From Rubrivirga marina (GTDB lineage: Bacteria; Bacteroidota; Rhodothermia; Rhodothermales; Rubricoccaceae), in contig NZ_MQWD01000001.1 in assembly GCF_002283365.1 (NCBI RefSeq), forward strand, positions 683,694 to 747,693: a DNA stretch of 64,000 bases, given 5' to 3'. Below, piece by piece: positions 37,338-43,983 of the stretch (positions within the stretch are counted from its first letter, which is position 1; each line of letters starts with the position of its first letter). The translations under genes were made by a program, and so were the position numbers. The notes under the pieces were generated by a model. That model was not told the DNA's origin. It saw only the letters and a program-made list of their open reading frames with translations, and searched no databases.

Positions 37338-38432
37338 TCAGTTGGCGTCGGCGGTCGCGGCCTCGCCGTTCGAGCTGTACATGTCGCGGGCGTAGAGCCA
37401 CTCCCCGCCCACGAGGCGCCACACCTCGAGCGCCTTGGCGCGGTCCACGACCTGGCCGCCGGCGCTGAGGACGATGTCGGAACGCCGGATGGCCGTGTTC
37501 CCGAAGCGGGCGACCTCGGCCGTCTGGACGTCCAGGCCATCGATGCCCGCGGCCAGGACCCCGGCGAAGTGGTCGCGGATGGCGTCGCGGCCCTGGACGG
37601 GCGGCGCGCCCGGGGGCATGACCATGGCGTTCTCGGTATAGAGCGCCGCGATGGCGTCGGCGTCGCCGCCGGCGACGGCCTGCTCGAAGCGCAGGTCGCT
37701 CCGCTCCATCGCGATCCGGACGAGATGGTCCGCGCTCGCGGTCAGGTCCGGGTCGCGGGCGAGGGCCTTGGTGAACTGGACCTCGGCCTCATCGAGCCGC
37801 CCCTCATCGAGGAGGAACTCGCCGTAGGAGTCGTACGGGTTGCCTTCGTCGGGCGCTACGCGGATGTGCTCGAGGAAGACCCGCTCGGCCCCGTCGGCGT
37901 CGCCGGCCTCCTTGAGCGTATAACCGAGCATGTTGAGCGCGCCGGCGTTGGACGGGTCGGCCTCGAGGGCGCGTCGGAGGACGGCGGCGGCCTCGTCGTA
38001 GCGGTCGTTGAAGTAGAACTCGTTGCCGAGCCACGTCGCCACGTCGCCGTCGTCGGGGTGCTCCTCGTGGAGGGCCCTCATGATCTCGATCTCGCGGTCG
38101 TGGTCGCCGTCGTGGTGGGCCGCGTAGGCCTCCACCATCTGGCGCTCGGCGTCGGAGACGCGCGCCGCCTGAGCGTGGCGGAGGTGCTCGGCGCCCTCGG
38201 CCGCCGGGGAGAGCCACGCGCGGTAGATGTGGGCGAGCGCGAACTGGGGATCGGCCTCGATCGCGGCATCGAGGTGCGCGCGGGCTGCGTCGAAGTCGAC
38301 GTACGAGACTTGTGTCAGGGCGAGCGCGTAGTGGTCGCGGGCGGCGTCGGAGGCCGTCGTCACGGGGACGTGCTGCGCATGGGCCAGCGAGGCCGTGAGG
38401 AGCAGGGCGAGGAGGGGCAGGAACCGTGTCAT
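37338..38432 (-). CDS. Exported TPR protein fused to SnoaL-like (NTF2) domain
   Basis: This 364-residue protein begins MTRFLPLLALLLTASLAHAQ, a signal peptide. Residues about 30-235 are tetratricopeptide repeats (ARAHLDAAIEADPQFALAHI, AAAVLRRALEADPSNAGALN, DEAEVQFTKALARDPDLTAS). Residues about 240-355 form a SnoaL-like/DUF4440 domain (FEQAVAGGDADAIAALYTEN, AMVMPPGAPPVQGRDAIRDH, ending WRLVGGEWLYARDMYSS). Combining a protein-interaction scaffold with a small ligand-binding domain is unusual. Three more SnoaL-like genes lie in the same gene run. The partners and ligand are unknown. It is followed closely by the cupin gene. Confidence 0.87.
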   Translation of the reverse strand: MTRFLPLLALLLTASLAHAQHVPVTTASDAARDHYALALTQVSYVDFDAARAHLDAAIEADPQFALAHIYRAWLSPAAEGAEHLRHAQAARVSDAERQMVEAYAAHHDGDHDREIEIMRALHEEHPDDGDVATWLGNEFYFNDRYDEAAAVLRRALEADPSNAGALNMLGYTLKEAGDADGAERVFLEHIRVAPDEGNPYDSYGEFLLDEGRLDEAEVQFTKALARDPDLTASADHLVRIAMERSDLRFEQAVAGGDADAIAALYTENAMVMPPGAPPVQGRDAIRDHFAGVLAAGIDGLDVQTAEVARFGNTAIRRSDIVLSAGGQVVDRAKALEVWRLVGGEWLYARDMYSSNGEAATADAN

Positions 38433-38464: not shown

Positions 38465-38932
38465 TCAGCAGGGCTCAGCGCCGCAGAGGGCGGCGGCCGA
38501 GAGGTCGGGCCCGTCGTCGGCGCGGTCGACGCCGGTCACCCGGCCGTCCGCGAGCCGCCATTCGTGCCGGAACCGGGTGGTGATGAGCTGGCCCGTCGCC
38601 GGGTGGGTCCGGCGGCGCGTGCCCACGGCGACGACGCGGTCGCCCTCGACCGTGATCATGTCAGGGACGAAGGCGGGAGCGCCGACCTGCGGGCGGAGCA
38701 CGCGCGCCGCCACGGTGCCGGAGCCCACGTGCCGCCCGACCTGGAGGCTGTGGGGCCCCTCCACCCACACCACGTGCGGGTCCAGCACGGCCACGACAGC
38801 CTCGACGTCGCCCCGGGCGAGGTCGGCGTAGATCTGGGCCACGGCGTCGGGGGCCGCCGGGGCGGTCGAGCGCTGGGCCGAGGCCGCCGGGGCCAGCGCG
38901 AGGAGCAGCAGGAGGGCGAGAAGGCGAGTCAT
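38465..38932 (-). CDS. Exported SnoaL-like (NTF2) protein
   Basis: This 155-residue protein begins MTRLLALLLLLALAPAASAQ, a signal peptide. The mature domain is SnoaL-like: AVAQIYADLARGDVEAVVAV, LDPHVVWVEGPHSLQVGRHV, GTVAARVLRPQVGAPAFVPD and TTRFRHEWRLADGRVTGVDR. It ends with a Cys-containing tail (SAALCGAEPC) that could form a disulfide. A GTG two codons upstream is an alternative start. The TPR/SnoaL gene begins 32 bp downstream. Its function is unknown. Confidence 0.83.
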   Translation of the reverse strand: MTRLLALLLLLALAPAASAQRSTAPAAPDAVAQIYADLARGDVEAVVAVLDPHVVWVEGPHSLQVGRHVGSGTVAARVLRPQVGAPAFVPDMITVEGDRVVAVGTRRRTHPATGQLITTRFRHEWRLADGRVTGVDRADDGPDLSAAALCGAEPC

Positions 38933-38967
38933 GGTCACAAGGGTCGGGGGGCGGCCGCGGCAGCGGG

Positions 38968-39330
38968 TTAGGGGCGATCGAGCAAGAGCGCGACGGCCTC
39001 CCGGAGCCGGGCGGCGTTAAAGGGCTTGGCGAGGAAGCCGTCGGCGCAGGCCGCGGCCCGGCGCGGCTCCCCGCTGACGAGGAGGACGGGCACCCCGTGC
39101 GTCGCGGCGTCGGCGTGGAGGGCGGCGCAGAGCGCGTAGCCGTCGAGGCCCGGCATCCGGACGTCGGCGATCACGAGGTCCGGCGTGGTGGCGAGCGCGA
39201 CGGCCAGCGCCTCGGCCCCGTCGGCGACCTCCACGACGCGGGCGGAGCCGCGGAGGCCGTGGCGGATGTAGGCCCGCATCTCCCGGTCGTCGTCGGCGAT
39301 GAGTACGTGGGGCATGAGAGCGTCGGCCAT
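38968..39330 (-). CDS. Stand-alone response-regulator receiver (REC) protein
   Basis: This 120-residue protein is only a receiver domain. It has the acidic pair in HVLIADDDREMRAYIR, the phospho-acceptor Asp in DLVIADVRMPGLDGYAL, the Ser of VPVLLVSGEP and the conserved Lys in FLAKPF. With no output domain it should act by interaction, like CheY or a phosphorelay carrier. A second ATG five codons in (MPHVLIADD) is also a possible start. It lies between the SnoaL-like genes and the large hybrid kinase on the same strand; a link with that kinase is likely but not shown. Confidence 0.88.
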   Translation of the reverse strand: MADALMPHVLIADDDREMRAYIRHGLRGSARVVEVADGAEALAVALATTPDLVIADVRMPGLDGYALCAALHADAATHGVPVLLVSGEPRRAAACADGFLAKPFNAARLREAVALLLDRP

Positions 39331-39461
39331 GGGTGGCGGGGCTGTGGCGCCTGGGCGGGGGGCGCCCACCACAGCGCCCCCGCCCGTCCCGGCGTCCGCC
39401 GCAGCGTGCGACGGGCCGGGTGGCGACCGACGGGAACCTGGGCCGGCCGCCCTCCCCCGCC

Positions 39462-39537
39462 GTTGCGGTCAGGGCCCCACTTGTTGCGCCTGGGGCGCAT
39501 GCGACGCTGACGCAACAGCGCGCAACGTCGACGCAAC
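39462..39537. promoter_or_regulatory. CGCAAC/GTTGCG repeat cluster upstream of the REC gene
   Basis: Within 76 bp there are two copies of GTTGCG (39462-39467, 39483-39488) and three of CGCAAC (39511-39516, 39521-39526, 39532-39537). The last three are spaced 10 and 11 bp apart, about one helical turn. They lie between the REC gene start and the end of the hybrid kinase/AraC gene. Turn-spaced direct repeats suit an AraC-type regulator; binding by the adjacent protein is inferred. Confidence 0.5.
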
Positions 39538-39561: not shown

Positions 39562-42500
39562 CTACCGGGTGGCCTCGGCGTAGGCCGACGGCCGTGAGCC
39601 GGTGTGGTCGAGGAACGCGTTCGAGAAGTGGGCCACGCTCTTGAACCCGACGCCGTAGGCCACCTCGCTGACGGTCCCGGCGCGGGCCGCCAGAAGGTCG
39701 GCCGCCCGGTCGAGCCGGGCTGTCCGGAGGAGGTCGCTCGGCGTCGTGCCCATCAGCTCCGTCGTCCGGCGGAGGAGGTGGCTCCGGCTGAGCCCGACGG
39801 CCTCGGCGAGGGCGCTGACGCTGAACGTCTCGTCGCTGAGGCGGGCCTCGATGGCCTCGCGGACCGACGCCACGAACGCGTCCTCGGCCGACTCGATGGG
39901 CGGGGGGCCGCCGGCGGCCCCGTCGCCGGCGACCCCGTCGCCCGAGGCCCCCTCGAACCGATCGCGCAGGCGCCGTCGCAGCGCGATGAGGTTGTCGGCA
40001 CGCGCGACCAGCTCGCGGACGTCGAACGGCTTGGTGAGGTAGTCGTCGCAGAGCTCCGCCAGCCCGTCGAGGCGGTCCTGGGGCGCGGCCCGGGCCGTGA
40101 GGAGGAGGATCGGGACGAAGTCGGTCTCGGGGTCCGACCGGAGCGCGCGGCAGAGGCCGAGCCCGTCGAGCCGCGGCATCATCACGTCGCTCACCACGAG
40201 GTCGGGGAGCCGCTGGCGGGCGCGGTCGAGGGCCTCCTCGCCGTCGGCGGCCTCGACGACGCGGTAGCCGGCCCCTTCGAGGTGGCGGCGGACGAAGGCC
40301 CGGATCTCGGGCTGGTCGTCGGCCACGAGGACCGTCGTCACGTCCTCGTCGTCCGAGTGCGCGAGCGGCGCCGGATCCGGCTCGACGTCGGGCTCGGGGA
40401 CCGGCACGACGGCCCCGCCCTCCCACGGCTGGTCGTCGACCTGCTCCGGCGTGAGGTGGTCCCGGCCGAGCAGGAGCGACAGCGTGAACGCGCTCCCCTC
40501 GCCGACCGCGCTCTCGACCGTGAGCGTCCCGCCGTGGAGCGCCGCCAGCTCGTGCGCGAGCGCCAGCCCGATGCCCGACCCGAGCGGCTGGCCGCCCCCC
40601 CCATCGGCCTGGTAGAACCGGTCGAACACGTGGGGGAGGTCGGCCTCGGCGATCCCCGGGCCGGTGTCGCGGACCGTCACGCGGGCCGCTCCGCCATCGA
40701 CCTCGAGCACGACGCGGACGGTGCCGCCGGCGGGCGTGAACTTGAAGGCGTTCGAGAGGAGGTTGGCGAGGACCGTCCCGAGGTGGGCGGGGTCGGCCCA
40801 GACCGGGACCGGCGCCTCGGGCGTGGCCACGTCGACGGCGACCCGTCGGTGGGTGGCGAGCGGCGTGAACGCCTCGACCTGGGCCTCGACGAAGGCCCGG
40901 AGGTCGAGGCGGCGCGCCCGGAGCGGCGCGCTCCCGGCCTCCAGCCGCGCCACATCGAGGATCTGGTTGATGAGGTCGAGGACCCGATGGGCCGAGCGCC
41001 GCGCCAACCCGAGCGGGTCGGCCACCTCGTCTGGGACCGGCCCGTACTCGCCGGCGAGCACGTCGTCGAGCGGGCCGAGCGTGAGCGTGAGCGGCGTCCG
41101 GAACTCGTGGCTGACGTTCGCGAAGAACCGGCTTTTGGCCCGGTCCAGCTCGCGGAGCGTCTGGGCCTCGACGTGCTCGAGCTCCAGCCGGTGCCGGAGC
41201 GCCACCCGCCGGCGGCGGTCCCGGACGGCGAGCATCGCGCCGCCCAGACCGAGGGCCAGGTACCCGGCGTACGCCCACCACGTCCGCCACCACGGCGGGG
41301 CGACGACCAGCCCCACCGAGGCCCCCTCCTCGTTCCAGACGCCGTCGCTGTTGGCCGCCCTTACCCGGAAGGTGTACCGGCCCGGCGGGACGTTCGTGTA
41401 CGTCGCCGACGGCTGCGCCCCGCCGTCGATCCAGCGTTCGTCGAGGCCCTCGAGGCGGTAGGCGTAGCGGTTCGCGTCGGGCTCCTTGAAGTGGAGCGCG
41501 GCGAACTCGAACGTCACCTGGTTCTGATCGTGCGCCAGCCGGATCGTTTCCGTCTCGGAAAGCGACCGCCGCAGTGGCGAGCTCGGCCCCCCGACGGGCT
41601 CGTTGAACACCCGGAGGCCCGTCAGCGCGACCTGCGGCGGGATCCGGTTGATCTGGAGCCGCTCGGGCCGGAAGGACGTCACGCCCATGCCGCTCCCGAA
41701 GTGGAGCACGCCGTCGCGCCCCATGGTGAACCCGTGCGTGTTGTACTCGAGCGCGATGAGCCCGTCGCCGAGCCCGTAGCGCCGGAACGTCTCTGTGGTG
41801 GGGTCGAACGCCGCGATCCCATGGTCCGTGCTCATCCAGAGCACGCCCCGCTCGTCCTGCAGGAGGCCGTAGACCACGTCGCTCGGCAGGCCGTCGTCGG
41901 TCGTGAACAGGCGGGCCGTGCCGGCGCGGGCGTCGTAGCGGTTGAGCCCCCCGCCGCGCGTGGCCAGCCAGAGGACGCCCGGCTCCTCGGGCCGTTCGGC
42001 GATGTCCAAGATGAGGTTGCTGCTGATCGTCGTCGGGTCGCTCGAGTCGTAGGCCGACGCGATCTCGGCGACGCTCGACGGTGCCAGGCGGACGAGGCCG
42101 TCCGTCGTCCCGGCCCAAAGCGTCCCGTCGGGGCTCTCATGCAGGACCTCCACGTTCGGGGCCTCGCCCGCAGCGCCGAGCCGGAGTGGGACCCGTGAGA
42201 ACTGGCCCGTCCGTGTGTCGAAGCGGTCGAGCCCCCCGACCGACCCGACCCAGAACACGTGCCCGTCGGCCGCCGTCGGCAGCAGCGCGTAGACGTCGTT
42301 GCGGCGTCGGTCGGCGGGCGAGCGCTCCGGCTGGAGAAAGCGGGTCACACGCCCGGTGGCCCGGTCGAACCGGCTGACCCCCCGCTCCTCCGCGATCCAC
42401 AGCCGCCCGTCCGGGTCCTCGGCGAAGGACCGGTTCACGCCCGGGTACAGCGCGGTGGGGTCGGTGGGGTCGTGCCGGTACCGGACCACCCGCCCCCCCG

Positions 42501-43983
42501 CGTCGACCCGCGTGAGGTAGAACTCGAGCTCGCCCACGTCGGTGTTCACCCAGAGCGTGCCCTCGCGGTCCTCGTAGATCCCCCACACGATGCCGGGCGC
42601 GAGGCTCTGGTCGTCGCGGGGGTCGTGCCGGAGGTGAGAGAGGTAGGCCGATCCTGTGTTGAACGCGCTGACGCCCTGCGACGCGTACCCCACCCACATC
42701 GTCCCGGAGCGATCGGAGGCGACGGTAAAGACGGAGTTCTCGGCCAGGCTGTACGCGTCGACCGGGTCGTGGCGGTAGCGCGTGAACGCCTCGGCGCGCA
42801 CGTCGAACCGGGCGATGCCGGTGCCCATCCCCGACACCCATAGCACGCCGGGGGCCTCGGGGTCCGGGATGACCGAGCGCAGGGTGTTGCGCGAGTTCGG
42901 CGCCCCCTCGTTCGGGACGAGCACGTACCGCTGGAACGCTCCGGTCTCGCTGTCGAGCCGGACGAGGCCGTTGCCGGTCGCCAGCCAGACGATCCCCGAG
43001 GTGCCGGGCGGGTGGTACATCGCGTAGACGTAGAACGGGGTCGCCAGCCCCCCCGCGCTCTCCGGGACGAACAGGAACCGCGTGACCGCGCCCGTGGCCG
43101 GGTCGAGGCGGAGGACGCCGTTCGCGGACCCCGCCCAAATCCGCCCGTCGGGCGCCTCGCTCAGGCGGTACAGTTCGTCGGACGGGAGGCTCTGCGGGTC
43201 GTCGGGGTCGTGGCGGAAGCGGGTGAACCGGCCGTCCTCGCCCGCCCGCATCCGGTTGAGCCCCCCGTCGAGCGTACTCACCCAGAGGTCCCCCCGCCGG
43301 TCCACGAGCGCGTCGACGGTCTTGTCGCTCGAGAGGCTGGCGGGGTCGTCGGGGTCGTGGCGGTAGTGGACGAAGGTGCCTGCCGTCCGGTCCATCCGGT
43401 TCAGCCCTCCGCGCTGGGTCGTGACCCAGAGGTCGCCGTCGGCCGCCTCGACGGTTGCGTTGACCCAGCTGTCAGAGATCGAGGTCGTGTCGAACGGGGT
43501 CGTCTTGTAGACGACGACGGCGTGGCCGTCGTAGCGGTGGAGCCCGCCCTGAGTCGAGAGCCAGAGGAAGCCCTCACGGTCCTGCATGACCGTGCGGACG
43601 GTCCCCTGCGCGAGCCCGTCGTCGATGGTCAGGTGGCGGAACCGGACGGAGGGGTCGGTGCGCCCGACGTCGGGGGGCGCCGCCGGATCGACCGACGCCT
43701 CGGCCTCGGGCTCGGCCGCGCGTGGGAGACGTGGAGCGTCACTGCGCGGCGCCTGGCACCCCGCTGCCAGCGCCACCGCCAACAACAGGTGGGCGACCGC
43801 CGCCGAACGAAACGCGTGGCCGCCTCCCCGCTCACGCAGAGGGGCGGCCCGATCCGTCTCGACGGCCCCGGCGCCCTGTCCGTGAGCGGGCCGTCTGCCG
43901 ACCCTCAGTCGCCGTAGCCGCACGTCTCTCCCTGGCCGTCCGTCGAAGGCACCACGGGCCCGCAGGGTACCGAACGTCTGCAT
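39562..43983 (-). CDS. Hybrid two-component system regulator (sensor, kinase, REC, AraC)
   Basis: This 1473-residue protein combines a whole signalling pathway. Residues about 90-820 are Reg_prop beta-propeller repeats (EGFLWLSTQGGLHRYDGHAV, GTMWVGYASQGVSAF) ending in a Y_Y_Y domain (GRYTFRVRAANSDGVWNEEG). One membrane segment follows (WWAYAGYLALGLGGAMLAV, about 900-920). The kinase has the phospho-acceptor His in FFANVSHEFRTPLTLTLG (about 957) and an ATPase region (GTVLANLLSNAFKFT, GSGIGLALAHELA). A receiver has Asp in DLVVSDVMMPRLDG (about 1264). The AraC-type HTH ends the protein (VAYGVGFKSVAHFSNAFLDH). HTCS proteins sense oligosaccharides in the periplasm and control nearby loci. The ATG start leaves about 60 residues before a hydrophobic signal (LLLAVALAAGC); a GTG at 43923 is an alternative. 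Confidence 0.95.
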   Translation of the reverse strand: MQTFGTLRARGAFDGRPGRDVRLRRLRVGRRPAHGQGAGAVETDRAAPLRERGGGHAFRSAAVAHLLLAVALAAGCQAPRSDAPRLPRAAEPEAEASVDPAAPPDVGRTDPSVRFRHLTIDDGLAQGTVRTVMQDREGFLWLSTQGGLHRYDGHAVVVYKTTPFDTTSISDSWVNATVEAADGDLWVTTQRGGLNRMDRTAGTFVHYRHDPDDPASLSSDKTVDALVDRRGDLWVSTLDGGLNRMRAGEDGRFTRFRHDPDDPQSLPSDELYRLSEAPDGRIWAGSANGVLRLDPATGAVTRFLFVPESAGGLATPFYVYAMYHPPGTSGIVWLATGNGLVRLDSETGAFQRYVLVPNEGAPNSRNTLRSVIPDPEAPGVLWVSGMGTGIARFDVRAEAFTRYRHDPVDAYSLAENSVFTVASDRSGTMWVGYASQGVSAFNTGSAYLSHLRHDPRDDQSLAPGIVWGIYEDREGTLWVNTDVGELEFYLTRVDAGGRVVRYRHDPTDPTALYPGVNRSFAEDPDGRLWIAEERGVSRFDRATGRVTRFLQPERSPADRRRNDVYALLPTAADGHVFWVGSVGGLDRFDTRTGQFSRVPLRLGAAGEAPNVEVLHESPDGTLWAGTTDGLVRLAPSSVAEIASAYDSSDPTTISSNLILDIAERPEEPGVLWLATRGGGLNRYDARAGTARLFTTDDGLPSDVVYGLLQDERGVLWMSTDHGIAAFDPTTETFRRYGLGDGLIALEYNTHGFTMGRDGVLHFGSGMGVTSFRPERLQINRIPPQVALTGLRVFNEPVGGPSSPLRRSLSETETIRLAHDQNQVTFEFAALHFKEPDANRYAYRLEGLDERWIDGGAQPSATYTNVPPGRYTFRVRAANSDGVWNEEGASVGLVVAPPWWRTWWAYAGYLALGLGGAMLAVRDRRRRVALRHRLELEHVEAQTLRELDRAKSRFFANVSHEFRTPLTLTLGPLDDVLAGEYGPVPDEVADPLGLARRSAHRVLDLINQILDVARLEAGSAPLRARRLDLRAFVEAQVEAFTPLATHRRVAVDVATPEAPVPVWADPAHLGTVLANLLSNAFKFTPAGGTVRVVLEVDGGAARVTVRDTGPGIAEADLPHVFDRFYQADGGGGQPLGSGIGLALAHELAALHGGTLTVESAVGEGSAFTLSLLLGRDHLTPEQVDDQPWEGGAVVPVPEPDVEPDPAPLAHSDDEDVTTVLVADDQPEIRAFVRRHLEGAGYRVVEAADGEEALDRARQRLPDLVVSDVMMPRLDGLGLCRALRSDPETDFVPILLLTARAAPQDRLDGLAELCDDYLTKPFDVRELVARADNLIALRRRLRDRFEGASGDGVAGDGAAGGPPPIESAEDAFVASVREAIEARLSDETFSVSALAEAVGLSRSHLLRRTTELMGTTPSDLLRTARLDRAADLLAARAGTVSEVAYGVGFKSVAHFSNAFLDHTGSRPSAYAEATR

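Follow-up and report, generated by a model that had tools for sequence, protein, structure and literature searches.

The 76-bp element at positions 39462-39537 of the window (the whole 64-kb stretch of DNA that was analysed) very probably serves as operator for the hybrid two-component (HTCS) regulator encoded beside it. The element consists of two 21-bp direct repeats that face each other, with a palindromic centre between them, and we base the assignment on the fact that the HTCS motifs predicted in Bacteroides are also direct repeats with an average spacing of 21 bp. To the explanation as a whole, in which the 76 bp are an HTCS operator and the HTCS would bind it, activate from it, form a tetramer on it and be subject to feedback, we give a probability of roughly 0.78.

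Geometry of the element

The initial annotation had reported five copies of CGCAAC or its complement GTTGCG in 76 bp, three of them spaced by a helical turn, and both points are confirmed; no other such cluster exists in the 64-kb window. On the plus strand, GTTGCG starts at 39462 and 39483, and CGCAAC starts at 39511, 39521 and 39532, the last three being 10 and 11 bp apart. The turn-spaced CGCAAC is not the repeating unit for which it had been taken. As read from the sequence, the unit is instead a 21-bp half-site, composed of an A-box (GTTGCG) and a B-box (approximately GTCGCAtg), which is used four times as a dyad. The exact pattern on the minus strand is GTTGCG-N15-GTTGCG-N7-CGCATGCG-N7-CGCAAC-N15-CGCAAC, and the fifth copy of CGCAAC (39521-39526) falls on the B-box position of the outer left half-site in the alignment consensus (Table 1).

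As in predicted HTCS sites, two boxes form a direct repeat with a spacing of about 21 bp; A1 and A2, like A4 and A3, are exactly 21 bp apart. A single direct repeat is usual in published HTCS sites without being a defining feature; here there are four half-sites in a dyad, and the layout is therefore a variant. The element begins 24 bp past the HTCS stop codon and lies 146 bp ahead of the start of a gene for a stand-alone receiver (REC).

Table 1. Features of the HTCS locus in window coordinates.
Feature	Position	Strand	Remarks
HTCS gene, presumed binding protein	39562..43983	-	Pfam Reg_prop, Y_Y_Y, HisKA, HATPase_c, Response_reg, HTH_18
76-bp dyad, putative operator	39462..39537	-	four AraC-type half-sites, -> -> <- <-; exact pattern, and ungapped frame in six other genomes
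A1, A-box of outer left half-site, GTTGCG	39532..39537	-	
B-box of outer left half-site, GTTGCGC (consensus GTCGCAA)	39520..39526	-	A2 consensus columns 12-18 of alignment; the extra turn-spaced copy of the initial annotation
A2, A-box of inner left half-site, GTTGCG	39511..39516	-	21 bp from A1
Centre, meeting point of inner B-boxes, GTCGCATGCGCC	39494..39505	.	perfect palindrome CGCATGCG at 39496-39503
A3, A-box of inner right half-site, GTTGCG	39483..39488	+	
A4, A-box of outer right half-site, GTTGCG	39462..39467	+	21 bp from A3
GGTTCCCGTCGGTCGC, candidate core-promoter element	39423..39438	-	16 nt, 23 nt behind A4, chosen by eye
REC, stand-alone receiver, presumed first target	38968..39315	-	Pfam Response_reg; in-frame ATG 15 bp upstream possible
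SnoaL_2-domain gene	38465..38938	-	29 bp after REC
TPR + SnoaL_2-domain gene	37338..38432	-	32 bp after SnoaL_2-domain gene

Conservation in other Rhodothermales

Each of the 60 genomes searched with the HTCS protein, the source genome among them, contained a match, and many of the matches were only partial. The 76-bp frame was compared with the HTCS 3' flanks of six other genomes, which were chosen from flanks already inspected and are not a random sample: G002 and G007 from the same family as the window, G017, G039 and G029 from a second family, and G009 from a third. In every one of the six the ungapped frame ranked first among all placements (225 per flank, or 119 for G009), with an identity to the window of 0.49-0.66 against a mean placement identity of 0.27-0.28. 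It starts 21-219 nt past the HTCS stop codon. The HTCS proteins are 80% identical to that of the window in G007 (query 932-1471), 67% in G002 (677-1472) and 46-51% in the remaining four. MAFFT aligned the seven frames in 76 columns with no gaps, and the consensus reads GTTGCG-N5-GTCGCAA...GTTGCG-N5-GTCGCATG, followed by its mirror image.

We built a sequence-only profile from the seven frames and scanned 114 genomes of the order with a cut-off of E 0.01. Eleven genomes matched at this level, seven of them the training genomes and four new. The best E-values among the four new genomes were those of G076 (1.8e-6) and G092 (contig C177, 5.2e-4), whose matches lie 49 and 182 bp past HTCS stop codons; the C177 match has an HTCS gene before it and a REC gene after it. 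The probability of two of four new genomes matching in an HTCS 3' flank by chance is about 2e-5, assuming a generous 6 kb of such flank per 3.3-Mb genome. For the other matches, in G084 (9.0e-4), on contig C209 of G092 (3.2e-3) and in G005 (9.0e-3), there is no AraC-HTH match within the 12-14 kb fetched, and we take them as chance matches; matches to a propeller sensor and to a receiver lie at least 1.7 kb from the one in G005. With six flanks aligned and two found by profile, the element is conserved near orthologous HTCS genes, as would be expected of an HTCS operator. The free REC behind the HTCS of G092 (L252:4368-4841, plus strand) scores slightly below the Pfam cut-off and by eye appears to have lost its acidic pair, with Glu replacing the phospho-accepting Asp; it is possibly a pseudo-receiver.

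The four half-sites are not kept equally. A1 and A2 agree at 5-6 of 6 positions in the window, G002 and G039, and at 2-3 in G007, G017, G029 and G009, the four of the seven genomes with a poorly conserved outer left half-site; in G076 they agree at 2 of 6. A3 and A4 agree at 4-6 positions in all seven training genomes, and the weak box in G092 is the outer right one (3/6). Agreement between A2 and A3 reaches at least 4 of 6 in eight of the nine genomes, with 2 of 6 in G009. Given the weak A1 in five genomes and the weak outer right box in G092, four-fold occupancy may not be general. In G076 and G092 the inner dyad is retained although its A-boxes are spelled differently (CTTCTG/CTTCTG in G076, CTTGCC/CTTGCT in G092), A2 and A3 mirroring each other at 6 and 5 of 6 positions, respectively. 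The 12-nt centre is a perfect palindrome in these two; it is palindromic at 10 of 12 positions in the window, G002, G017 and G029, at 8 in G039 and G009, and at 4 in G007. A palindrome score calculated for 88 flanks recovered the 76-bp frame in the window, G002, G039, G029 and G009, although the score of the window is weak (z 1.7); it favoured another centre in G007, and G017 is absent among the 22 rows listed. The three highest-scoring flanks (L016, L177 and L046) contain unrelated palindromes.

A simple covariation between recognition helix and A-box was looked for by eye and is not supported, the first helix SRGHLHRQLKAL being common to G017, G029 and G076 and the A-boxes differing. Also by eye, the gap between HTCS and REC in three further loci (L067, L068 and L069, from G019, G015 and G030) appears to contain an oppositely oriented tandem repeat of 21 bp, of the type TTGCGAC...GACATC in L068, without a mirrored arm; lag 21 ranks 7, 2 and 1 in these loci in the test described below. 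The related regulator of G007 (L013:1492-4599, minus strand) has a HAMP-type sensor with no Reg_prop match and retains the kinase, receiver, HTH, operator and REC; the sensor has been exchanged and the output module conserved.

Generality of the 21-bp spacing

Repeat spacing was also assessed without regard to letters, as the best 18-bp self-match at lags of 12-80 in up to 300 nt past each gene, with this one box width and lag range. The genes were those with a C-terminal match to the HTCS HTH domain, among the matches listed, and nearly all loci had been retrieved by HTCS protein; the flanks were selected before the test, and some had already been inspected. After removal of 37 duplicates, two rows with N runs and one partial match, 88 distinct flanks were left, 69 from Rhodothermales and 19 from named organisms.

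Lag 21 was the best spacing in 18.0 of the 69 Rhodothermales flanks and 6.5 of the 19 named ones, where about 1 and 0.3 would be expected for 69 equally likely lags. Coding controls gave 1.8 of 69 and 0.5 of 19, DNA 600-900 nt downstream gave 3.0 of 63 and 0.8 of 17, and resampled sequence gave 0.3, 2.5 and 2.2 of 69 and 0.7, 0 and 0 of 19. A lag-21 score of at least 12 was found in 25 of 69 flanks, compared with 11 of 69 coding and 9 of 63 downstream controls. The majority of flanks have another best spacing and no clear lag-21 repeat. Named flanks with lag 21 in first place include those of Hymenobacter, Larkinella and Runella. The analysis suggests that the 21-bp HTCS spacing extends into Rhodothermales and Cytophagales. 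Searching for lag-21 repeats directly past HTCS genes would be a cheap way of finding targets.

One HTCS and one site detected

By Pfam, the product of the neighbouring gene combines sensor, HisKA, HATPase_c, receiver and AraC-type HTH domains in a single polypeptide, the composition of an HTCS. In its genome (4.98 Mb in 11 contigs, 97% complete) the query's kinase, receiver and AraC regions are all matched by only one protein, so that one HTCS was detected. The only other frame there with a receiver and an AraC-type HTH, among the matches listed, is one of 338 amino acids (G000:C1:3637629-3638360).

The initial annotation had suggested looking for the repeat at other promoters, and pattern and profile searches of the 4.98 Mb returned no second site, although diverged sites could escape them. 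GTTGCG-N15-GTTGCG occurs exactly twice in the genome, both times in the 76-bp element, and the dyad core with up to three mismatches occurs only there. A regulon-wide repeat was rejected, since pattern counts are not above those of the reversed control: 2 against 6 for the direct repeat, 2 (one palindromic place) against 4 for the dyad core, and 6 against 16 for a further pattern. Nor are there the many genomic copies of a REP-like dispersed repeat, and a search for plasmid DNA resembling the region gave no match. With a single HTCS detected and with direct repeat, dyad and profile matches only here, the site looks like a private operator rather than part of a regulon. The proposal of the initial annotation that the AraC domain may bind upstream of REC is strongly supported by comparison, that is, by the 21-bp spacing, the conserved HTCS flanks, the two new flanks found by profile, the one HTCS and the lack of a second site in these searches.

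Downstream genes and promoter

The element had been proposed to control a run of REC, SnoaL and transport genes. This may hold in part, as the short gaps make one transcript arguable for REC, SnoaL and TPR-SnoaL only; the rest of the run, with the transport genes, is more distant. The most likely target, judging from gene arrangement, is REC together with the SnoaL and TPR-SnoaL genes packed closely behind it.

No sigma-70-like promoter was found at the locus. For the 45 nt that follow the operator, register 0 gives the best alignment in G007 (0.56) and G002 (0.71, partly homopolymer) and does not do so in G017, G039, G029 and G009. The candidate promoter element GGTTCCCGTCGGTCGC is partly common to G007 and G002 only. 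The G002 contig opens with a G/C homopolymer run (L011:1-78), apparently an assembly artefact, and the sequence past its operator is lost.

A REC match occurs within 1.8 kb past the HTCS gene in 10 of the 64 Rhodothermales flanks with 600 nt or more of DNA downstream, the window included, and in eight of the ten it starts 149-407 nt past the HTCS stop codon. REC is present in 7 of 23 flanks with a lag-21 score of at least 12, compared with 3 of 41 others (Fisher p 0.028, from one test on related sequences). The genes past the HTCS gene vary among genomes: G017 and G039 have no REC match within 1.8 kb past the HTCS gene with the operator, and a RidA-like gene directly follows REC in G007 and lies farther downstream in the window.

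Alternative explanations

Could the element be a chance cluster of a short word in GC-rich DNA? CGCAAC is no common word in the window, since its 26 occurrences on both strands fall below the 35.3 expected. In 60 Markov-2 simulations of a 64-kb window, the densest 76-bp cluster of CGCAAC held one copy in 24 cases, two in 35, three in one and five in none. When all 6-mer families are considered, however, 25 of the 60 simulated windows hold a cluster of at least five copies in 76 bp, and in the real window CGCAAC is the only family to reach this density. The copy count alone is mildly unusual, whereas the geometry, conservation and location are unusual, and in view of the 25 simulated windows the case is made by geometry and conservation, not by count. 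The self-complementarity of the 76 bp, 46 of 76 positions, is unremarkable in DNA so rich in GC (z 1.7), which also favours chance. Because the frame is kept in six other genomes and in two outside the training set, we find a chance origin hardly credible.

The inverted GTTGCG and CGCAAC arms immediately past the stop codon might also form an RNA or DNA hairpin, serving as a terminator or processing signal of the HTCS gene. We searched for an intrinsic terminator, a GC-rich hairpin with a T run, and rejected this candidate, as no terminator-like site was found at the locus and the RNA folding energy is ordinary for the composition (z -1.34). A hairpin has no need of 21-bp direct repeats, and lag 21 returns with different letters in other HTCS flanks, which makes this role very improbable. 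The site could instead belong to another regulator that also controls REC, the HTCS being an incidental neighbour, as the differing gene content past the HTCS in different genomes would allow. This we consider improbable, since the operator tracks the HTCS gene in three training-set families and in G076 and G092, is present in G017 and G039 without a nearby REC, and has the spacing of predicted HTCS sites. A further possibility overlaps with our preferred reading: only the right direct repeat (39462-39503), beside the REC promoter, would function, holding one dimer as proposed for Bacteroides, and the left arm would be a relic or a weak accessory. The steadier right arm in the seven training genomes, together with the weak A1/A2 match in four of them, argues for this arrangement, as do the predicted Bacteroides sites, which are described as single direct repeats. 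Against it stand the well-matched A1 and A2 of the window, G002 and G039 and the mirroring of A2 and A3 in all nine genomes except G009. We regard it as a serious possibility, somewhat short of even odds.

Proposed mechanism

Under the preferred reading, in which the whole 76 bp form the HTCS operator, a half-site with its B-box about 10 bp on from the A-box would fit one AraC-type domain, the recognition helices lying in successive major grooves. The two domains of an HTCS dimer could sit on two half-sites spaced by 21 bp, and a second dimer could occupy the mirrored pair. The assigned box centres lie at approximately 3.5, 13, 24.5, 34, 43, 52.5, 64 and 73.5 in the frame, with gaps of 9-11.5 bp, so the eight boxes, about one helical turn apart, could present eight contacts on one face of the DNA. 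This one-face reading draws on the established architecture of the AraC family, whose domain, according to PMC4514859, has two helix-turn-helix units in adjacent turns.

We infer that occupation of the propeller sensor would lead the HTCS kinase to phosphorylate its own receiver, and that the phosphorylated receiver would free the AraC domains to bind. The bound HTCS would activate the promoter that serves the free REC gene and the SnoaL genes packed closely behind it, and the free REC may accept phosphoryl groups from the HTCS kinase, damping the response. The recurring pairing of HTCS and free REC suggests such a phosphate-sink feedback. A bolder version, rather unlikely in our view, has two kinase-tethered dimers clamped head to head on the 76 bp, their inner B-boxes sharing the palindromic centre, as a cooperative switch of a single promoter; the free REC would drain phosphoryl groups from the same kinase in a feedback loop recurring across Rhodothermales. 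The head-to-head layout raises the question of how a regulator tethered to a kinase dimer sits on four half-sites, and the element offers a testable candidate binding site, read from the sequence, for an HTCS outside the classical Bacteroides.

Relation to known sites

MelR and RhaS/RhaR are soluble sugar-binding regulators whose operators contain several half-sites, direct or inverted. The present site resembles theirs in having several half-sites, where each domain would use two recognition helices in adjacent turns, and differs in that its regulator is a sensor kinase fused to an AraC domain.

In Bacteroides thetaiotaomicron, according to Ravcheev et al. (2013, PMC3878776), motifs were predicted for 16 of 36 HTCSs, all of them direct repeats with a mean spacing of 21 bp, and HTCSs were proposed to act as dimers with monomers two helix turns apart. 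Our site shares with the motifs described there the regulator architecture, the two direct-repeat boxes about 21 bp apart and the position near the HTCS gene. It differs from those sites, described as single direct repeats ahead of polysaccharide-use operons, by its two facing repeats and palindromic centre. It is followed by a stand-alone receiver and then SnoaL genes, not by susC/susD or similar genes, which were a criterion in selecting the published set and are not a defining feature. Among the matches listed from the open-licence PMC literature, there was no paper on Rhodothermota HTCS operators or on HTCS operators with four half-sites. Sites of this general type have precedents; what looks new is the mirrored arrangement in four parts.

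A later paper on Bacteroides HTCSs reports DNA binding that depends on phosphorylation and is restrained by contact between the receiver and the DNA-binding domain, with an S/CHIP motif as its mark. At this position of the receiver loop, the window HTCS has DFVP. Across 37 Rhodothermales sequences, DF[VIL] occurs there in at least 17 and SHI in at least 6 (from the 15 commonest 4-mers, which cover 30 of the 37), and SHI is the commonest form among 25 named sequences, with 12.
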